Source: a virus
DNA length: 20,475 bases
Virus record (IMG/VR): IMGVR_UViG_3300033064_006802
Location: 1 to 20,475 of that record
Strand: one strand, 5' to 3'
Under the pieces are notes generated by a model. That model made no database searches. It saw nothing but the letters and a program-made list of their open reading frames with translations, and was not told the DNA's origin. Each line of letters begins with the position of its first letter. Within the stretch, counting starts at the first letter, position 1. This document shows, in pieces, positions 1,450 to 12,624 of this stretch. Both the position numbers and the translations under genes were made by a program.

Positions 1450-1845
1450 ATGAGCTTAGACAAAGAAATATTTGATGGAAAGACACTTTCCGACCTATTT
1501 TCCGAAATTTACAAGAATACGGATACCAAAAGACAACAAATTAATACGTTTGTGTCTAAATTGGTCATGTTAATCCGCACCCCAGAAGATGCGGCGGTGA
1601 TTGGTCCTATTATAAAAGATTTTATTGAAGTAAATGTCAAAAACGACGAACATTTAGTTCGTGTCGCCCAAATTGCCCAACGTATTGTCGGAGTAATGTC
1701 AACTGGCGAGACTATTGATGGGCTATTGACTGAAGAAGAAAAGCAAAATCTGCTGAAGGACATTAAGTTAGAAGTAGAAGAAATGCAGGATGACGGCAAA
1801 AATATCGAAGAAAATATCTTCGCTATACAAAAACGAGTCAATTAA
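1450..1845 (+). CDS. Conserved-looking helical protein upstream of the gp5-like hub gene
   Basis: Unrecognised 131-residue protein, predicted to be almost entirely helical and soluble. The central part (residues 30-82) carries QINTFVSKLVMLIRTPEDAA (30-49), then IGPIIKDFIEVNVKNDEHLV (51-70) and a further helix, RVAQIAQRIVG. The last third is acidic and coiled-coil-like. I chose the ATG at 1450 over the in-frame TTG at 1438 because GGAGG lies five bases before 1450. It ends with TAATG shared with the hub gene, so the two are probably translated as a coupled pair. A small chaperone or baseplate-associated role would suit the position, but nothing in the sequence proves it. Confidence 0.8.
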   Translation: MSLDKEIFDGKTLSDLFSEIYKNTDTKRQQINTFVSKLVMLIRTPEDAAVIGPIIKDFIEVNVKNDEHLVRVAQIAQRIVGVMSTGETIDGLLTEEEKQNLLKDIKLEVEEMQDDGKNIEENIFAIQKRVN

Positions 1846-3224
1846 TGCAACCAGGTGGCTTTCGTGTAACAAACAGACAAGGTGGACAAAAAACATTAAT
1901 GCCCGGGGCTGACTACGGCAGTTCAGCCCAGGCGCAGCCGTTTATTTATGATGTTGCCCAAGTGGAAACTGTTATTTATAATGAAGAAAGCACAACACCA
2001 AATATTGGCCAATATTCACAAACTCGGTCCGACGAAACTGCAGGTCGTATTCAATTTCGTTTGTTATCAATAGATCAGCAAACAAAACGAAAAGATTTAA
2101 GTTGGGCAGATCCCCTTACTCCATACCAATCCGTGTTCCCTATTATCGGGGAGCATGTATTGATATTTAAGGCACTTGGTCGCTATTATTATATCGGTCC
2201 ATTAAATACCAATCGCAATATTACGCAAAATACATCACCATTATTGGGCGATACGGTAGAAGCAGCCGGTAGCACCCATCAACGCGCTAGGGAAAGTTTG
2301 GCAGGTATTACCAGAACCATGTCAAATGCGGGTAATACTAATAGAAGCAAATTTAAAGACATTAACGTTAATCCGTTAAAAGTCTTTGAAGGTGACATTG
2401 TATTACAAGGTCGTTATGGTAATTCCATACGATTTGGTAGCAGCCAACGCAGCGGACCAGCGAGCCAACAAAATCCTAACATTATTATTCGTGCAGGACA
2501 GGCAAAGAACGCCCCAAAAACAGGGAATGCGAAATTAGCACTGACCATTGAAAATACAAACAATGACGCCAGTTCTATTTATCTATCATCAAACGAAACC
2601 ATTGCGTTTAGTCCCGCCACACTATCCAGCAAAGCATTTTTAGCATCGCTAAAGAATAGACCTGGTGTATTTGATGGCGCACAAATATTAATTAATTCCG
2701 ACAGAGTAGTAGTGAACGCCAAGGATACATCTATATTCCTATTTGCAAAACAAGGTATTCACTTAAATGCCATATCGGAAGGAATTACACTGGACGCCGA
2801 AGGAGTGATCATATTACGCTCCGAGTCCAATACCACCATAGCCGCTAAGAGCACAGTATTGTTGAAGAGCGAAGCAGATATTACAGTGACTGCTAAGCAA
2901 TATTTAACAATGGATGCAGATAAGCGCATGACATTACGAAGTAATGAAATTTATATGGGTGGCTATAGTAATATGTCACAACCACTGGTCTTGGGCACGA
3001 CATTAAAATTATTCTTATTAGAATTGAAAGAAATATTTAAGGTGGCACAACCACTAACACTCCCAGGCTCAGGATTAGTAAGTCCTGTATTTTTGGGGTT
3101 GATGGAATTGCTGTATGCAAAGTATATGGTGTTGCCGGGTGTTGTCAATCCCCTCTGGGCATCTAATGATAATTTTGCATTAAAGTCTAATACGCAAACT
3201 GCTGGCTCAACGGTCACGGTATAG
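1845..3224 (+). CDS. 5: Baseplate central spike/hub protein, gp5-like (OB fold plus beta-prism, no lysozyme domain)
   Basis: Forms the trimeric needle under the tail tube that pierces the outer envelope. Of 459 residues, about 38-120 form a gp5/VgrG-type OB fold (GRIQFRLLSID at 67-77, FPIIGEHVLIFKALGRYYYIGPLN at 98-121). Residues 183-250 carry the GDIVLQGRYGNSIRFGS segment (183-199) and an ENTNNDASSIYLSSN stretch, typical of gp5-like proteins of T4-like aquatic phages. Residues 282-370 are a run of short alternating beta strands (for example STVLLKSEADITVTAKQYLTM, interrupted at residue 350), the intertwined beta-prism. The C-terminal 85 residues are more hydrophobic and may form the tip or a partner-binding region. 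T4 gp5 is about 575 residues and has a lysozyme domain between OB fold and prism; none is seen here. Starts on TAATG shared with the upstream gene. Confidence 0.85.
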   Translation: MQPGGFRVTNRQGGQKTLMPGADYGSSAQAQPFIYDVAQVETVIYNEESTTPNIGQYSQTRSDETAGRIQFRLLSIDQQTKRKDLSWADPLTPYQSVFPIIGEHVLIFKALGRYYYIGPLNTNRNITQNTSPLLGDTVEAAGSTHQRARESLAGITRTMSNAGNTNRSKFKDINVNPLKVFEGDIVLQGRYGNSIRFGSSQRSGPASQQNPNIIIRAGQAKNAPKTGNAKLALTIENTNNDASSIYLSSNETIAFSPATLSSKAFLASLKNRPGVFDGAQILINSDRVVVNAKDTSIFLFAKQGIHLNAISEGITLDAEGVIILRSESNTTIAAKSTVLLKSEADITVTAKQYLTMDADKRMTLRSNEIYMGGYSNMSQPLVLGTTLKLFLLELKEIFKVAQPLTLPGSGLVSPVFLGLMELLYAKYMVLPGVVNPLWASNDNFALKSNTQTAGSTVTV

Positions 3225-5339: not shown

Positions 5340-5777
5340 ATGTCTAAGACTGTATACTTGGGATCCACGTTACCATTAGGTCGTAATCGTGTAGGATATT
5401 TTGCGACTACTACTGATCCATTGGAAAACGAAAAGTCCAAGTTTATCAACTTAATGTTGACGATGAAGGGAGAACGAGTTTCCAATCCAACATTTGGCTG
5501 CGATTTGTGGAAACTTTTGTTTGAACAAAAAACAGATAATATGCAAGATTTGGCAAAACAATACGTTACCGATGCGGTAGAACGGTTTATGCCATATCTA
5601 AAGCTACGCCAAATTTCAATCACGAATGTTGATACATTTTTGACTGACAATACTATCAATTTATATGTCCAGTATGCGTTTGCGAATAATCCACTAGCGG
5701 TGCAATCTGTTCAACTGACCATTGGTGATCTTCCGCAGGGAAGTTTAGTAAGTTCTGGTATGTTATCTACACTCTGA
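5340..5777 (+). CDS. 25: Baseplate wedge protein gp25 (GPW/gp25 family)
   Basis: Wedge subunit that joins the gp6 ring to the tail sheath and is thought to start sheath assembly; homologous proteins exist in phage P2 (gpW) and type VI secretion (TssE). At 145 residues it is near the usual family size (T4 gp25 is 132). The family pattern is visible: a helix with an Asn-Leu pair (residues 37-38), then GER (44-46), Pro50 and F-G (52-53), followed by the LLFE helix (59-62) and two C-terminal beta strands (residues about 93-103 and 108-116). A binding site AAGG (5330-5333) overlaps the end of the upstream gene. gp6 follows eight bases after its stop, an order seen in many T4-like phages. Confidence 0.9.
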   Translation: MSKTVYLGSTLPLGRNRVGYFATTTDPLENEKSKFINLMLTMKGERVSNPTFGCDLWKLLFEQKTDNMQDLAKQYVTDAVERFMPYLKLRQISITNVDTFLTDNTINLYVQYAFANNPLAVQSVQLTIGDLPQGSLVSSGMLSTL

Positions 5778-5785
5778 GATAAGCA

Positions 5786-7732
5786 ATGGCAATATTGAAT
5801 AATGATGTTATCAAAAAAATAACTGTAGCACCCAAGGAAGTCCGATATCTCAACAAAACCTTTGTTGATTTTAAGTCGGACCTTACCACATATATCAAGC
5901 AATACTATCCAACCACATGGACTGACTTTAATGAAGCCAATCCTGGCATGATTATGTTGGAAATGGCGGCGTATGTCGGTGAAGTGTTGTCATTTTATAT
6001 TGATAATCAATTTAAAGAAAGTTTATTAGCATACGCAGAAGAAGAACGCAATGTTATCAACATCGCACAAGCATTTGGGTACAAGCCAAAAATTATTGCA
6101 CCGTCGACAACAGAAATTCTTCTGTCACAAGTTGTACCCGCGCTAGGGTCCGGGGACGGTTATGTTCCCGATGCGACTTATATGTTGCGTATTGATAGGA
6201 ACTCAACATTTTCTACTACCGGACCAAATGTTGTAAATTTCAGAACAGTGGAGTTGGTGGATTTTGCGGATAATGTCGGACGCACCATTCAGCCATATCA
6301 AATTGATCAGACAACATTACAGCCTACCACATATTTGTTTACTAAGACAGTTAACGTGTTGGCCGGTAATTTAAAGTCGCAAACATTTAGCTTTGGTGAT
6401 CCTGCCAAATTCTCTGCTATTACCTTGGGCGATCCTAATGTAACCGCAATTAATAAGGTCACTGACGGTGATGGTAATTTATGGTACGAAGTAGATTTCT
6501 TGGCACAAGATACGATTATTAACGACACCGTGGTATCGTATACCGCTAATGTATCCGAATCTACGAATCCCCCATATGTTATTAAGTTCAGAACAGTACC
6601 ACGCCGCTTTGTAACCAGATTAAATGCCGATTCAAATTTACAATTATTATTTGGTTCTGGACAAGGAAATGTATCTGAGGATGTTGTTTCACTAGATTAT
6701 CGCCAAGTAGCCAACCCCGAGTATCAAACAAATATTGCGAATGTAGCACTAGACAATACAGACTTTTTACAGACAGATAGTTTTGGATTAGCTCCTGCCA
6801 ATACCACACTCACGGTAGAATATACCACCAGTGGTGGTATAACTACGAACGTATCCTCTGGAGCCATTACCGAGGTTGGTGTATTGAATGTGGTAAACTC
6901 CACAACAGAATTTAATTCGTCCGAATTGGCATTATTTAGAGATATTGTAAGTACCGTATCGGTATTCAATACCATGCCAGCGACCGGCGGCAATGATGGA
7001 GAAACCGTAGAAGAAATTAGCCAACGAGCATTATCATTCTTGGGTGCGCAGAATCGTGTGGTGACTCGTGAAGATTATGAAAATCGTGTACTAGCAATGC
7101 CAGCAAAATTTGGAGCAGTTGCTAAAGTGTTTGCGGTATCCGATGCACAACAAAACAAGATACAAGGATTGAGTAGTCCGGACCAAGTGGGCATACAAAA
7201 TGCTACATTTGTAGATGATCAACCAAAGCCAAATGCAATCAATTTATACATGTTGGGCTATAATCAAAATGGAAAAATCACCCAACTAAATTCATTAGTA
7301 AAGAAAAATGTGCAGTCATATTTATCACGATATAGAATGTTGACAGACCAAGTAAATATTCTAGATGCGTTTGTGGTCAATATTGGTATCACATTTGACA
7401 TCATCGTATTCAAGAATCATAATATGTACGATGTATTGGCGGTGTGCTTAGACGCAGTACGTAATTATTTTAATACCAAGAATTGGGATATTAATCAACC
7501 GATTACTTTGTCAGACTTGCGGGTAGTGATTGCCGCACAGGATGGGGTACAGAGCGTTACCAATTTGGAAATTAATAACAAGTATTTCTATAAGGACGGC
7601 AGAGATTATCAAAACTACCGATATGACATTGCCAGTGCAACAGTTAACGATGTAGTCTATCCTTCATTAGACCCGTGTATTTTTGAAGTCCGCTATCCAG
7701 AAACCGACATCGTAGGAAATGCTACCCAATGA
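5786..7732 (+). CDS. 6: Baseplate wedge protein gp6-like (baseplate J-like)
   Basis: Core wedge protein; in T4 two gp6 chains per wedge form the inner ring of the baseplate. The 648 residues match T4 gp6 length (660). The N-terminal part has the family pattern of an Asp-Phe-Asn motif followed by PGMIMLEMAAYVGEVLSFYI (about residues 54-73), and then an AYAEEERNVINIAQAFGYKP helix where the aligned T4 protein is also helical. Residues about 405-440 hold the J-like core: DGETVEEISQRALSFLGAQN, then R-V-V-T-R-E-D-Y-E. The C-terminal third has the mixed alpha/beta pattern (VNIGITFDIIVFKNH and a later SDLRVVIAAQDGVQSVTNLE) common to J-like proteins. Eight bases separate it from gp25, and it ends in ATGA shared with the next gene. 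Confidence 0.9.
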   Translation: MAILNNDVIKKITVAPKEVRYLNKTFVDFKSDLTTYIKQYYPTTWTDFNEANPGMIMLEMAAYVGEVLSFYIDNQFKESLLAYAEEERNVINIAQAFGYKPKIIAPSTTEILLSQVVPALGSGDGYVPDATYMLRIDRNSTFSTTGPNVVNFRTVELVDFADNVGRTIQPYQIDQTTLQPTTYLFTKTVNVLAGNLKSQTFSFGDPAKFSAITLGDPNVTAINKVTDGDGNLWYEVDFLAQDTIINDTVVSYTANVSESTNPPYVIKFRTVPRRFVTRLNADSNLQLLFGSGQGNVSEDVVSLDYRQVANPEYQTNIANVALDNTDFLQTDSFGLAPANTTLTVEYTTSGGITTNVSSGAITEVGVLNVVNSTTEFNSSELALFRDIVSTVSVFNTMPATGGNDGETVEEISQRALSFLGAQNRVVTREDYENRVLAMPAKFGAVAKVFAVSDAQQNKIQGLSSPDQVGIQNATFVDDQPKPNAINLYMLGYNQNGKITQLNSLVKKNVQSYLSRYRMLTDQVNILDAFVVNIGITFDIIVFKNHNMYDVLAVCLDAVRNYFNTKNWDINQPITLSDLRVVIAAQDGVQSVTNLEINNKYFYKDGRDYQNYRYDIASATVNDVVYPSLDPCIFEVRYPETDIVGNATQ

Positions 7733-10859: not shown

Positions 10860-12362
10860 ATGGCAAACGCAGCAGAGTTTCTACGATTTTCTACAAATAA
10901 ACTAACAGCGGATTATAAACTCCGTACCCGCACTGCCGTCCCGGGACAAAACATCACGGTTACGAATATATCACCTGACTATGAAGTAACGGTAGTAATT
11001 GCAGGAGCGTTCGACGGTGCAACCGTTACGCCTTCGCAAGTAATATTAGTGCCAAACCAAACTAAGACATTTACCGTTACCTATGATATTGCGTATTTAG
11101 AAACATTACCAGCAGGAATCGTTACTAGTAATGTTAATTTTGCGGCAACGGCACGGGCACTCTTTATTCCAACACACGCCGATGTACCACCACCGTCACA
11201 CACCGATGTACCGTCACACACCGATACACCACCACCGTCACACGACGATGTACCACCACCGTCACACACCGATGTACCTTCACATGCCGATGTACCTTCA
11301 CATGCTGATGTACCTCAACCGGACACTGTTACGATCTTACCGGCGTCCCAAGCCATTACGACAGGGGCAGATACAACATTCACCGCGATAGTACGAAATG
11401 CCAGTGGCACTGTATTGACGAACAGATTGATCACCTGGTCTTCGTCTAATTCTGGTGTTGCTACGATTTCTACTAACGGAATGGTCATGGGAGCAACAGC
11501 AGGTACAGCGACAATCACCGCTACTAGCCCCGGAGCAGTGCAGGACACAGCCACGATCACTGTATCTGCACAGATAGTAGAACAGGATACTATTACGATC
11601 TCACCGGCGTCCTACGCCATTACGACAGGAAACTCTACAATATTCACCGCAATGGTAAAGAATGCCAATGGCATCCAACTCAATAAACCGGTCACGTGGA
11701 ATTCGTCTAACCCTGGGGTTGCTACCGTTGTACCTACCGGAATCATCATGTCACAGAACTCAGCCGCACAGTTCGGCGCCGGGACCACCGTCACCGGAGT
11801 AACCGCAGGTACAGCGACAATCACCGCTACTAGCGGCGGAATATCGAGCACAGCCACAATCACTGTATCTGCACAGAATAATGTAGTTACGGTTATGGTA
11901 TCCCCGAAAGAACGTACAATATTTGCAAACCAGCGCGAGACACAACAATATACTGCTCAATTGATGGTTAATAATAGTCCAGTTGATGCGACATTTACGT
12001 GGAGTCTAGGCACTCCCTTCGGTCCACCAGGATCAGGATTTAGTATTGGAAATGCGGGGTCGGTCGTAGCGCAAACCGAAGGATTCTATTCAGCAACTGT
12101 TATAGCAACAGTGGATACGCCTATTGCGTATCGTGGCGCAACGGATACCGCACCAGCAGTGGCAAATATTAACCCGCCAGTATCAAAGACATACACACTG
12201 GAATTAGTGCACCCCGAAACTCTGACTCAAAATACCAGTGATAAAGTGACGGGCACTATATACGAAGATGGCGTACCAACAGATATTCCCGTTAGCTTTA
12301 CTATAGCATTTGCTCCCAGCACCAGTGGTGGCAGTGATGACGACGACAATACTCGGGACTAA
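10860..12362 (+). CDS. Ig-domain virion protein with His-Asp-Val-Pro repeat and two BIG2 domains
   Basis: A 500-residue modular protein. Residues 25-100 form an Ig-like beta sandwich. Residues 106-154 are a seven-unit repeat, each unit starting H-x-D-(V/T)-P and running 6 or 8 residues (SHTDVP, SHADVP or PPSH types). About 155-238 and 241-338 are two BIG2-type Ig domains, each with a WxSSNxGVAT core and a TAGTATITATS strand; BIG2 domains occur in adhesins and phage tail proteins. About 340-440 is a further beta region, and 442-490 looks like the first half of another Ig domain, ending in an acidic Gly/Ser/Asp tail. The second BIG2 domain carries about 15 extra residues (298-312, with Q-F-G-A-G). 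A host-surface-binding or spacer role is likely, judging from the domains and the location among fibre-like genes. Confidence 0.8.
   Translation: MANAAEFLRFSTNKLTADYKLRTRTAVPGQNITVTNISPDYEVTVVIAGAFDGATVTPSQVILVPNQTKTFTVTYDIAYLETLPAGIVTSNVNFAATARALFIPTHADVPPPSHTDVPSHTDTPPPSHDDVPPPSHTDVPSHADVPSHADVPQPDTVTILPASQAITTGADTTFTAIVRNASGTVLTNRLITWSSSNSGVATISTNGMVMGATAGTATITATSPGAVQDTATITVSAQIVEQDTITISPASYAITTGNSTIFTAMVKNANGIQLNKPVTWNSSNPGVATVVPTGIIMSQNSAAQFGAGTTVTGVTAGTATITATSGGISSTATITVSAQNNVVTVMVSPKERTIFANQRETQQYTAQLMVNNSPVDATFTWSLGTPFGPPGSGFSIGNAGSVVAQTEGFYSATVIATVDTPIAYRGATDTAPAVANINPPVSKTYTLELVHPETLTQNTSDKVTGTIYEDGVPTDIPVSFTIAFAPSTSGGSDDDDNTRD
11175..11318 (+). repeat. In-frame tandem repeat coding HxDVP units
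   Basis: Seven in-frame units code for H-x-D-(V/T)-P of six or eight residues each. At the DNA level, a 32-base block at 11181-11212 recurs exactly at 11247-11278 (offset 66). Two 18-base units at 11271-11288 and 11289-11306 differ by one base. The high identity implies recent expansion or contraction by slippage or recombination. Seven His residues spaced 6-8 apart with neighbouring Asp could bind divalent metal, but the region may equally be a stiff proline-rich linker. Confidence 0.85.
11320..11878 (+). repeat. Duplicated BIG2 domain coding sequence
   Basis: Two consecutive domain-coding stretches align in frame with a period of 306 bases. A 30-base block at 11499-11528 is identical to 11805-11834, and further shared stretches flank it (the TTACGATCT start and the final CACTGTATCTGCACAGA). 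The second copy has an insertion of about 45 bases near 11752-11797 that is richer in G and C. The pattern indicates a relatively recent internal duplication followed by divergence. Confidence 0.8.
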
Positions 12363-12387
12363 GATAATACAACAATCTTTTCACACT

Positions 12388-12392
12388 AAGGA
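12388..12392 (+). promoter_or_regulatory. Ribosome binding site deciding a small gene start
   Basis: AAGGA lies seven bases before the ATG at 12400. It supports this start over the in-frame ATG at 12310, which would overlap the previous gene by 53 bases and add an unstructured leader. Confidence 0.5.
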
Positions 12393-12399
12393 ATTCTAT

Positions 12400-12624
12400 A
12401 TGTCAGAGATTACAATATCAGCCAATAACGGACCAGGAACATACACAATTATTGGTACGGCGACCACACCAACCGGAATAATCAATAATGAGATTTTCAT
12501 TACTGTAGCACGTACAGCGGTACAAAAGACCACAGTTATAACGACCGGCGGCGGTGGTGGTGACGGCGGTGGTGGTGTTGGTGACGGGCAGACAGAAAGT
12601 ATTGCACAACAATTTCTAGCATAA
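12400..12624 (+). CDS. Small beta-strand protein with glycine-rich tail, possibly the partner half of an Ig domain
   Basis: Unrecognised 74-residue protein. Residues 1-40 alternate like beta strands of an Ig-like fold (SEITISANNGPGTYTIIGTA, residues 2-21, then NNEIFITVAR, 29-38). Residues 50-63 are almost pure Gly/Asp (GGGGGDGGGGVGDG), and a short polar helix ends it. The preceding gene ends in what looks like the first strands of an Ig (BIG1-like) domain (TIYEDGVPTDIPVSFTIA) and an acidic Gly/Ser tail, so this small protein could complete that domain as a separate chain. It could also be a free-standing minor structural protein. The next gene begins nine bases after its stop. Confidence 0.7.
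   Translation: MSEITISANNGPGTYTIIGTATTPTGIINNEIFITVARTAVQKTTVITTGGGGGDGGGGVGDGQTESIAQQFLA

Follow-up and report, generated by a model that had tools for sequence, protein, structure and literature searches.

His-x-Asp arrays are tied to a radical SAM enzyme family in phages, and a short array of this kind may form the stalk of a tail or baseplate Ig protein

Arrays of the form His-x-Asp (HxD) are tightly tied to a family of radical SAM enzymes, and they appear to be used as substrate by radical SAM/SPASM-like enzymes of phages and of some bacteria. Our analysis concerns a repeat in a virus record of 20,475 bases, which seems to be a fragment and which in its entirety we refer to as the window. 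To this repeat we assign, with about even confidence, the role of a short HxD array of the radical SAM/SPASM-like substrate kind that would serve as the stalk of a tail or baseplate Ig protein.

Results

The repeat joins Ig-like domains in a tail or baseplate protein

The features of the gene that carries the repeat are collected in Table 1. In agreement with the sequence-only reading, which had placed the repeat in an Ig-domain structural protein of the virion, the product matches Pfam Big_2 in two stretches (E 2.7e-15) and the PHROG entry 'structural protein with Ig domain' (E 3.6e-26), and baseplate wedge genes (PHROG, 5340-7732) lie 5' of its gene. The N-terminal domain has 14 invariant columns in an alignment of nine sequences (A2), and AlphaFold2 models its approximately 110 residues mainly as strands (mean pLDDT 73.7, pTM 0.59). 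Its top Foldseek matches are SPD-2/ASH, MSP and PapD-type domains at E of about 2e-3, with none at E <= 1e-3, and we describe these residues as a predicted Ig-like sandwich. Given the Big_2 domains, the PHROG names, the baseplate wedge neighbors and the Ig-like N-terminal domain, the window protein is, as judged by annotation, an Ig protein of the tail or baseplate that has a stalk, and on the predicted domain map the array is the junction between the N-terminal Ig-like domain and the two Big_2 domains. Two Big_2-like domains after the repeat are a likeness to other Ig-domain phage structural proteins (Big_2; PHROG 215), yet an orthologue of the window protein at locus L011 lacks Big_2 domains and nonetheless retains an HxD array. 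Just downstream of the Ig protein gene lies a short Gly-rich ORF (window 12310-12624) without a Pfam or PHROG match.

Table 1. Features of the Ig-domain protein gene, in window coordinates
Feature	Position	Strand	Basis
Gene for a 500-aa Ig-domain structural protein, holding the repeat	10860..12362	+	ORF; Big_2; PHROG; N-terminal domain relatives in 26 loci
N-terminal conserved domain, Ig-like (predicted ASH/MSP/PapD-like fold)	10860..11171	+	alignment, AlphaFold2, Foldseek
Seven-unit His-x-Asp array, residues 106-152	11175..11312	+	translation, Tandem Repeats Finder
33-base exact block, copies 66 bases apart	11180..11212 (first), 11246-11278 (second)	+	sequence comparison
First Big_2 Ig domain, residues 156-235	11325..11564	+	Pfam
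Second Big_2-like domain, about residues 239-337 (edges approximate)	11574..11870	+	second Pfam stretch; PHROG and PDB alignments reach 337-338
C-terminal domain common to L011 (edges approximate)	11880..12330	+	phmmer, residues 341-500 against L011, E 6e-31

The array consists of the units HADVPPPS, HTDVPS, HTDTPPPS, HDDVPPPS, HTDVPS, HADVPS and HADVP, which start at residues 106, 114, 120, 128, 136, 142 and 148; the HxD motifs run from 11175 to 11309. The spacings are 8, 6, 8, 8, 6 and 6, so that the regular seven-unit repeat in steps of six or eight residues reported from the letters is indeed present; Tandem Repeats Finder scores it at 129, 135 and 88. The motif had been given as His-x-Asp-Val-Pro, and this form holds for six of the seven units, the remaining one being HTDTP, whereas HxD occurs in all seven. 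Seven of the eight His residues of the protein sit in HxD, and three kinds of residue (A, T and D) occupy the middle position. At the DNA level an exact block recurs at the 66-base distance previously noted, with a length of 33 rather than 32 bases. As the units are near-copies in DNA, constancy of His and Asp inside the window alone may mean just recent duplication. A match to Cornifin across the repeat (Pfam E 3.3e-4, below the cut-off) was discarded as a match of composition.

The evenly placed His residues had been taken to suggest metal binding, by analogy with phage spikes that hold iron. An unmodified array in which seven His with Asp neighbors bind Zn, Ni, Ca or Fe, stiffening or docking the stalk, would account for the regular spacing of both residues, and His-rich phage fibre tips can bind iron. 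The analogy with spikes is not supported for the window, where the array gene is not the spike gene; the latter we read, from sequence alone, as the gp5-like gene at 1845-3224, for which PHROGs returned no match. Metal binding by itself seems to us quite improbable, the least favored of the alternatives considered here, because it leaves unexplained both the association of HxD with radical SAM genes described below and the Phe/Tyr-x-Asp/Asn version of the arrays. It is not exclusive, since modified arrays might still bind metal.

His and Asp are retained at the repeat site in a close orthologue

No relatives of the whole window protein were confirmed in viral contigs, and none were found in GenBank phages. 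Orthologues were gathered instead via gp6 (80 loci), via a 1485-aa tail protein (8 loci) and via the N-terminal domain (26 loci); some of these 26 are partial or near-copies, and the counts are of loci rather than of independent events. The only close orthologue available, L011, has an N-terminal domain 81% identical to that of the window protein and no match to its Big_2 region. Its array reads HADVPV, HADVPVPAV, HADVPT, HNDIYVPT, HNDIYVPT and HNDVPQ, with both His and Asp in each of the six units, spacings of 6 to 9 and the Pro at unit position 5 missing in two, and three further HxD units lie near the C-terminus. All nine His residues of the L011 protein are in HxD, with four kinds of middle residue. 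Across the window and L011 units the middle position is taken by A, T, D, N, G or Y, while His and Asp, alone among the residues, are retained in 16/16, with codons that vary in the third base only. Because L011 retains His and Asp while the middle residue, the Pro/Val context and the spacing shift, we take the core of the repeat to be HxD and not HxDVP. The sequence-only reading had held that loss of His with Pro and spacing kept would favor a plain linker; in L011 all six units keep His and Asp. A plain linker would hold no residue in particular, and the 16/16 retention of His and Asp speaks weakly against one, as it involves one close orthologue only.

More distant orthologues present a different picture. 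Among the 26 N-terminal-domain loci, 24 of those other than L011 are without HxD and have at most one His each in the available protein, and L288 is too short at the site. Where the site is readable, a Pro-rich linker stands at the same position after the same N-terminal domain but, unlike the window array, it has no His and no HxD, and this places the array at a stalk position. After this linker come either GCTDPxAxNYNPxATxDDGSC repeats, which are numerous in L005:7547-9475 (a protein without a Pfam family), L006:8207-9688, L018:7153-9090 and others, or other sequence. Another orthologue, L025:8508-10514, closes with a long Thr-Pro dipeptide run followed by a Gly-rich end.

The main rival to the substrate reading is that the repeat is no more than a Pro-rich stalk of variable length connecting Ig modules, in which slippage has copied an incidental HxD. 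Such a stalk fits the linkers at the same site in the other readable orthologues, the near-identical tandem DNA copies of the window units with their 33-base exact block, and the lack of an enzyme within the window fragment. It does not fit the synonymous third-base changes in the codons of two residues that alone are held throughout, the further HxD cluster near the L011 C-terminus, or the near absence of His from the remaining orthologues. We consider it unlikely on balance, though the strongest of the rivals. The length-variable stalk had been raised earlier as the alternative to metal binding, and it is borne out in part, by the linkers of distant orthologues. The comparison with L011 supports an importance of His and Asp greater than a plain linker calls for, and the sequence-only interpretation as a whole is partly supported.

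HxD-rich phage records hold a radical SAM gene

Two pattern scans of viral contigs returned 34 and 36 stretches, many of them chance pairs or simple DNA repeats in open frames, together with long HxD proteins (up to 62 HxD). One match fell in the tail of a radical SAM enzyme (L131), and we therefore searched the HxD phages for radical SAM genes. Such a gene is present in all 11 HxD-rich phage records, which had been selected by eye before the enzyme search and of which two (L124 and L127) are near-identical in sequence; L131 had been selected since its matching ORF is the enzyme, and a separate 32-unit HxD ORF is also found there. As controls, radical SAM genes occur in 4/38 pattern-hit records (simple repeats or chance hits kept as a control set), in 1/27 window-phage relatives of at least 20 kb, and in 1/18 when most of the remaining pattern records are taken, the single case being L136, already among the 11. 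When an after-the-fact rule is applied (five HxD in 60 aa with at least four kinds of middle residue), 11 of the 12 records that pass carry the enzyme, compared to 2/16 below the rule. The one passing record without the enzyme is that of L011, with its four kinds of middle residue, while the window array alone, with three, falls below the rule. Short window-like units occur in other proteins at two loci of enzyme-bearing records (L116 and L147), as HNDVPP and as HNDAPHNDAPHGDIP (HNDAPHGDIP), inside or after other sequence. Among open PubMed Central titles and abstract openings, mostly without subscription literature, we found no report that links phage HxD repeats with a radical SAM gene. The earlier statement that no phage module with this motif was known has to be revised, given that HxD arrays recur in phages beside a radical SAM gene.

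This tie points away from a simple metal site and towards a repeat that is modified by an enzyme. Several observations count against the substrate reading for the window itself, among them that neither the 20-kb window record nor the 9-kb L011 record holds a radical SAM gene (0/2), that the window array is short and its units are near-copies in DNA, and that a plain Pro-rich linker occupies the site in more distant orthologues. The enzyme is present in 1/27 orthologue records, the other 26 being fragments of less than 100 kb. Whether the window array is a substrate is, in our estimate, roughly an even bet, with the plain linker as its main rival.

Enzyme loci carry HxD arrays and a DUF483-like partner

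In the reverse direction, an alignment of 11 radical SAM enzymes (A1) led to 302 related viral contigs, of which 79 loci were kept; some are near-copies, and again loci rather than independent events are counted. At 72/79 of these loci an ORF other than that of the enzyme, on the same strand, has four or more HxD within 45 aa, and at 59/79 such an ORF ends no more than 1.5 kb upstream of the enzyme. When the enzyme ORF and both strands are counted, clusters of HxD are present at 73/79 loci, compared to 4/79 for HxE and 0/79 for HxK, and the control loci around gp6 and the tail protein have an HxD cluster in 1/88, namely the repeats of L011. The four enzyme loci that lack any array (L199, L202, L203 and L206) have just 0.4 to 3.5 kb of upstream sequence. 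The enzymes themselves often hold the motif, with at least two HxD within the last 130 residues in 62/79. ORFs rich in aromatic-x-Asp/Asn (six in 45 aa) are found at 74/79 viral enzyme loci, with less clean controls, as 11/88 gp6/tail loci and 5/68 distant radical SAM loci also reach the threshold.

Cellular genomes give a comparable result: among the best 80 loci, an HxD cluster is present in 10/12 closer relatives of the enzyme (L296 and L297 being the two without) and in 0/68 distant radical SAM loci. Among the bacterial examples are ORFs that are 70 to 112 aa long and have 7 to 11 HxD. A second gene accompanies the enzyme, in that a three-sequence profile detects a DUF483-like gene at 73/79 viral loci and 12/12 closer cellular loci, and at 0/88 controls; two of the proteins tried pass the Pfam DUF483 cut-off. 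At six bacterial loci (L291, L292, L293, L294, L296 and L297) the enzyme and the DUF483-like match share a single open frame, suggestive of a fusion.

Cultured Thermus phages and a relative of the window phage carry the module

The enzyme is also encoded by the Thermus phages Cumys, phiMa and phiLo, at 45%, 45% and 51.5% identity, respectively, to L174, the enzyme of the relative G055 described below. An HxD array gene is situated directly upstream of the enzyme in Cumys (Cumys_13, 54 HxD) and in phiMa (53 HxD), and in Cumys the baseplate genes are followed in turn by the collar fibre gene, one small gene, Cumys_13, the enzyme and a DUF483 gene. The rSAM module of these phages is thus built from the same enzyme family with an HxD array gene upstream and, in Cumys, a DUF483 gene downstream. 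In the sections of the published account that were consulted, the Cumys module is described as having two neighbors of unknown function, DNA modification is suggested, and the word histidine is absent (PMC11437467). Our reading is that Cumys_13 is probably the substrate of the Cumys radical SAM enzyme.

G055, a relative of the window phage whose gp6 is 69% identical to that of the window, has an orthologue of the window protein (L285) without HxD. Its enzyme is located 67 kb from gp6, with four HxD/HxN/FxN ORFs upstream of the enzyme, one of them fused to a collagen-like tail fibre (Pfam, PHROGs). Given this distance, the cassette would lie outside any 20-kb fragment around gp6 if the layout in the window phage is as in G055.

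The arrays fit the residue pattern of peptide-cross-linking radical SAM enzymes

The A1 enzymes have a CxxxCxxC motif plus further conserved Cys. Among the best 25 NCBIfam matches of each of 10 enzymes, none passes a product-level cut-off, and the SPASM domain model passes for L169 only. Matches below the cut-off include models for anaerobic sulfatase maturase, DynA, AmcB and YhhB, several of which are named as cyclophane-forming, and the best scores of the family go partly to sulfatase maturase and partly to cyclophane enzymes. By sequence, the closest solved structures are the anaerobic sulfatase-maturating enzyme and ChlB.

According to the parts of PMC11002830 consulted, triceptide enzymes (XncB, OscB, MscB, YxdB, HaaB and YhhB) are likewise radical SAM peptide maturases and join an aromatic residue i (Trp, Phe, Tyr or His) to the residue at i+2, which can be Asn, Asp, Arg, Ser or Ala. 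To compare the arrays with this scheme, residues were counted in 62 non-redundant HxD ORFs (of 102; 11,171 residues in total). Asp or Asn stands at +2 after 53% of 227 Phe and 36% of 247 Tyr, as opposed to 23% overall and no more than 13% after non-aromatic residues, whereas Trp is without enrichment (19% of 31). The corresponding value for His, 99%, arises by construction as the regions were cut at HxD, while Phe, Tyr and Trp were not selected. HxD, FxN and YxD all fit the triceptide i/i+2 motif, which may point to a related chemistry, and the window array also has an aromatic residue at i and a cross-linkable one at i+2, as a pattern only. There are differences from the systems described in the same parts of that source (PMC11002830): triceptide precursors are RiPP peptides of biosynthetic gene clusters, whereas the arrays found here are in phage proteins, some of them tail-fibre-like; the phage HxD arrays reach about a hundred sites, unlike the described precursors; and the examples given do not include a pairing of His with Asp.

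A further possibility is that HxD arrays belong to the radical SAM module but serve another chemistry or purpose, be it a different side-chain change or DNA modification. The resemblance of the enzyme family to sulfatase maturase as well as to cyclophane enzymes would allow for this, and DNA modification is what the authors of the Cumys paper propose for the module (PMC11437467). Against it, Cumys_13 is a 54-unit HxD array encoded just after baseplate and collar-fibre genes, and an aromatic-to-Asp/Asn i/i+2 motif suits peptide cross-linking (PMC11002830, in part). We judge other chemistry improbable, more so than a plain stalk and less so than metal binding alone.

On the substrate reading, an enzyme of the host, or one whose gene lies elsewhere in the phage genome, would abstract a hydrogen and link each His ring with the beta carbon of the Asp at i+2, in the manner of triceptide enzymes. 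A floppy, protease-sensitive Pro-rich linker would by this route become a stiff chain of small rings. For the window phage we infer each of these elements, namely the array as substrate, the presence of the enzyme, a cyclophane product and a stiffening role. A broader proposal, which we put forward tentatively and with less confidence than the stalk reading itself, is that tailed phages install His-Asp, Phe-Asn and Tyr-Asp cyclophane chains in their own fibre and tail proteins via a phage-encoded radical SAM enzyme and its DUF483-like partner, and that the window Ig protein would hold a seven-ring stalk of this type. Should this hold, radical SAM peptide chemistry, so far described for small peptide natural products in the parts of the sources consulted, would extend to virus structural proteins as large substrates with many sites. 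The rSAM module of the cultured Thermus phages would gain a specific, testable role, and a probable substrate would be named for an enzyme family that has 302 related virus contigs and lacks a curated product name. Such a modification would also represent a little-known viral route to the chemical finishing of fibres, and ring-stiffened, genetically encoded long fibres could be considered as a material.

Other features of the HxD proteins and their loci

Neither Cumys_13 nor the L129 HxD protein belongs to a Pfam or PHROG family. HxD proteins such as those of L263, L265, L129, L145, L299, L301 and L302 often have about three GSxWVxGxxxxYxDxxGxxR repeats at the start. At L177:10965-16482, upstream of the radical SAM gene, collagen-like (Gly-x-Thr/Pro) tail-fibre ORFs occur together with HxD/FxN ORFs, and a small ORF with HADHVD (L177:17889-18284) separates the radical SAM gene of this locus from its DUF483-like gene.
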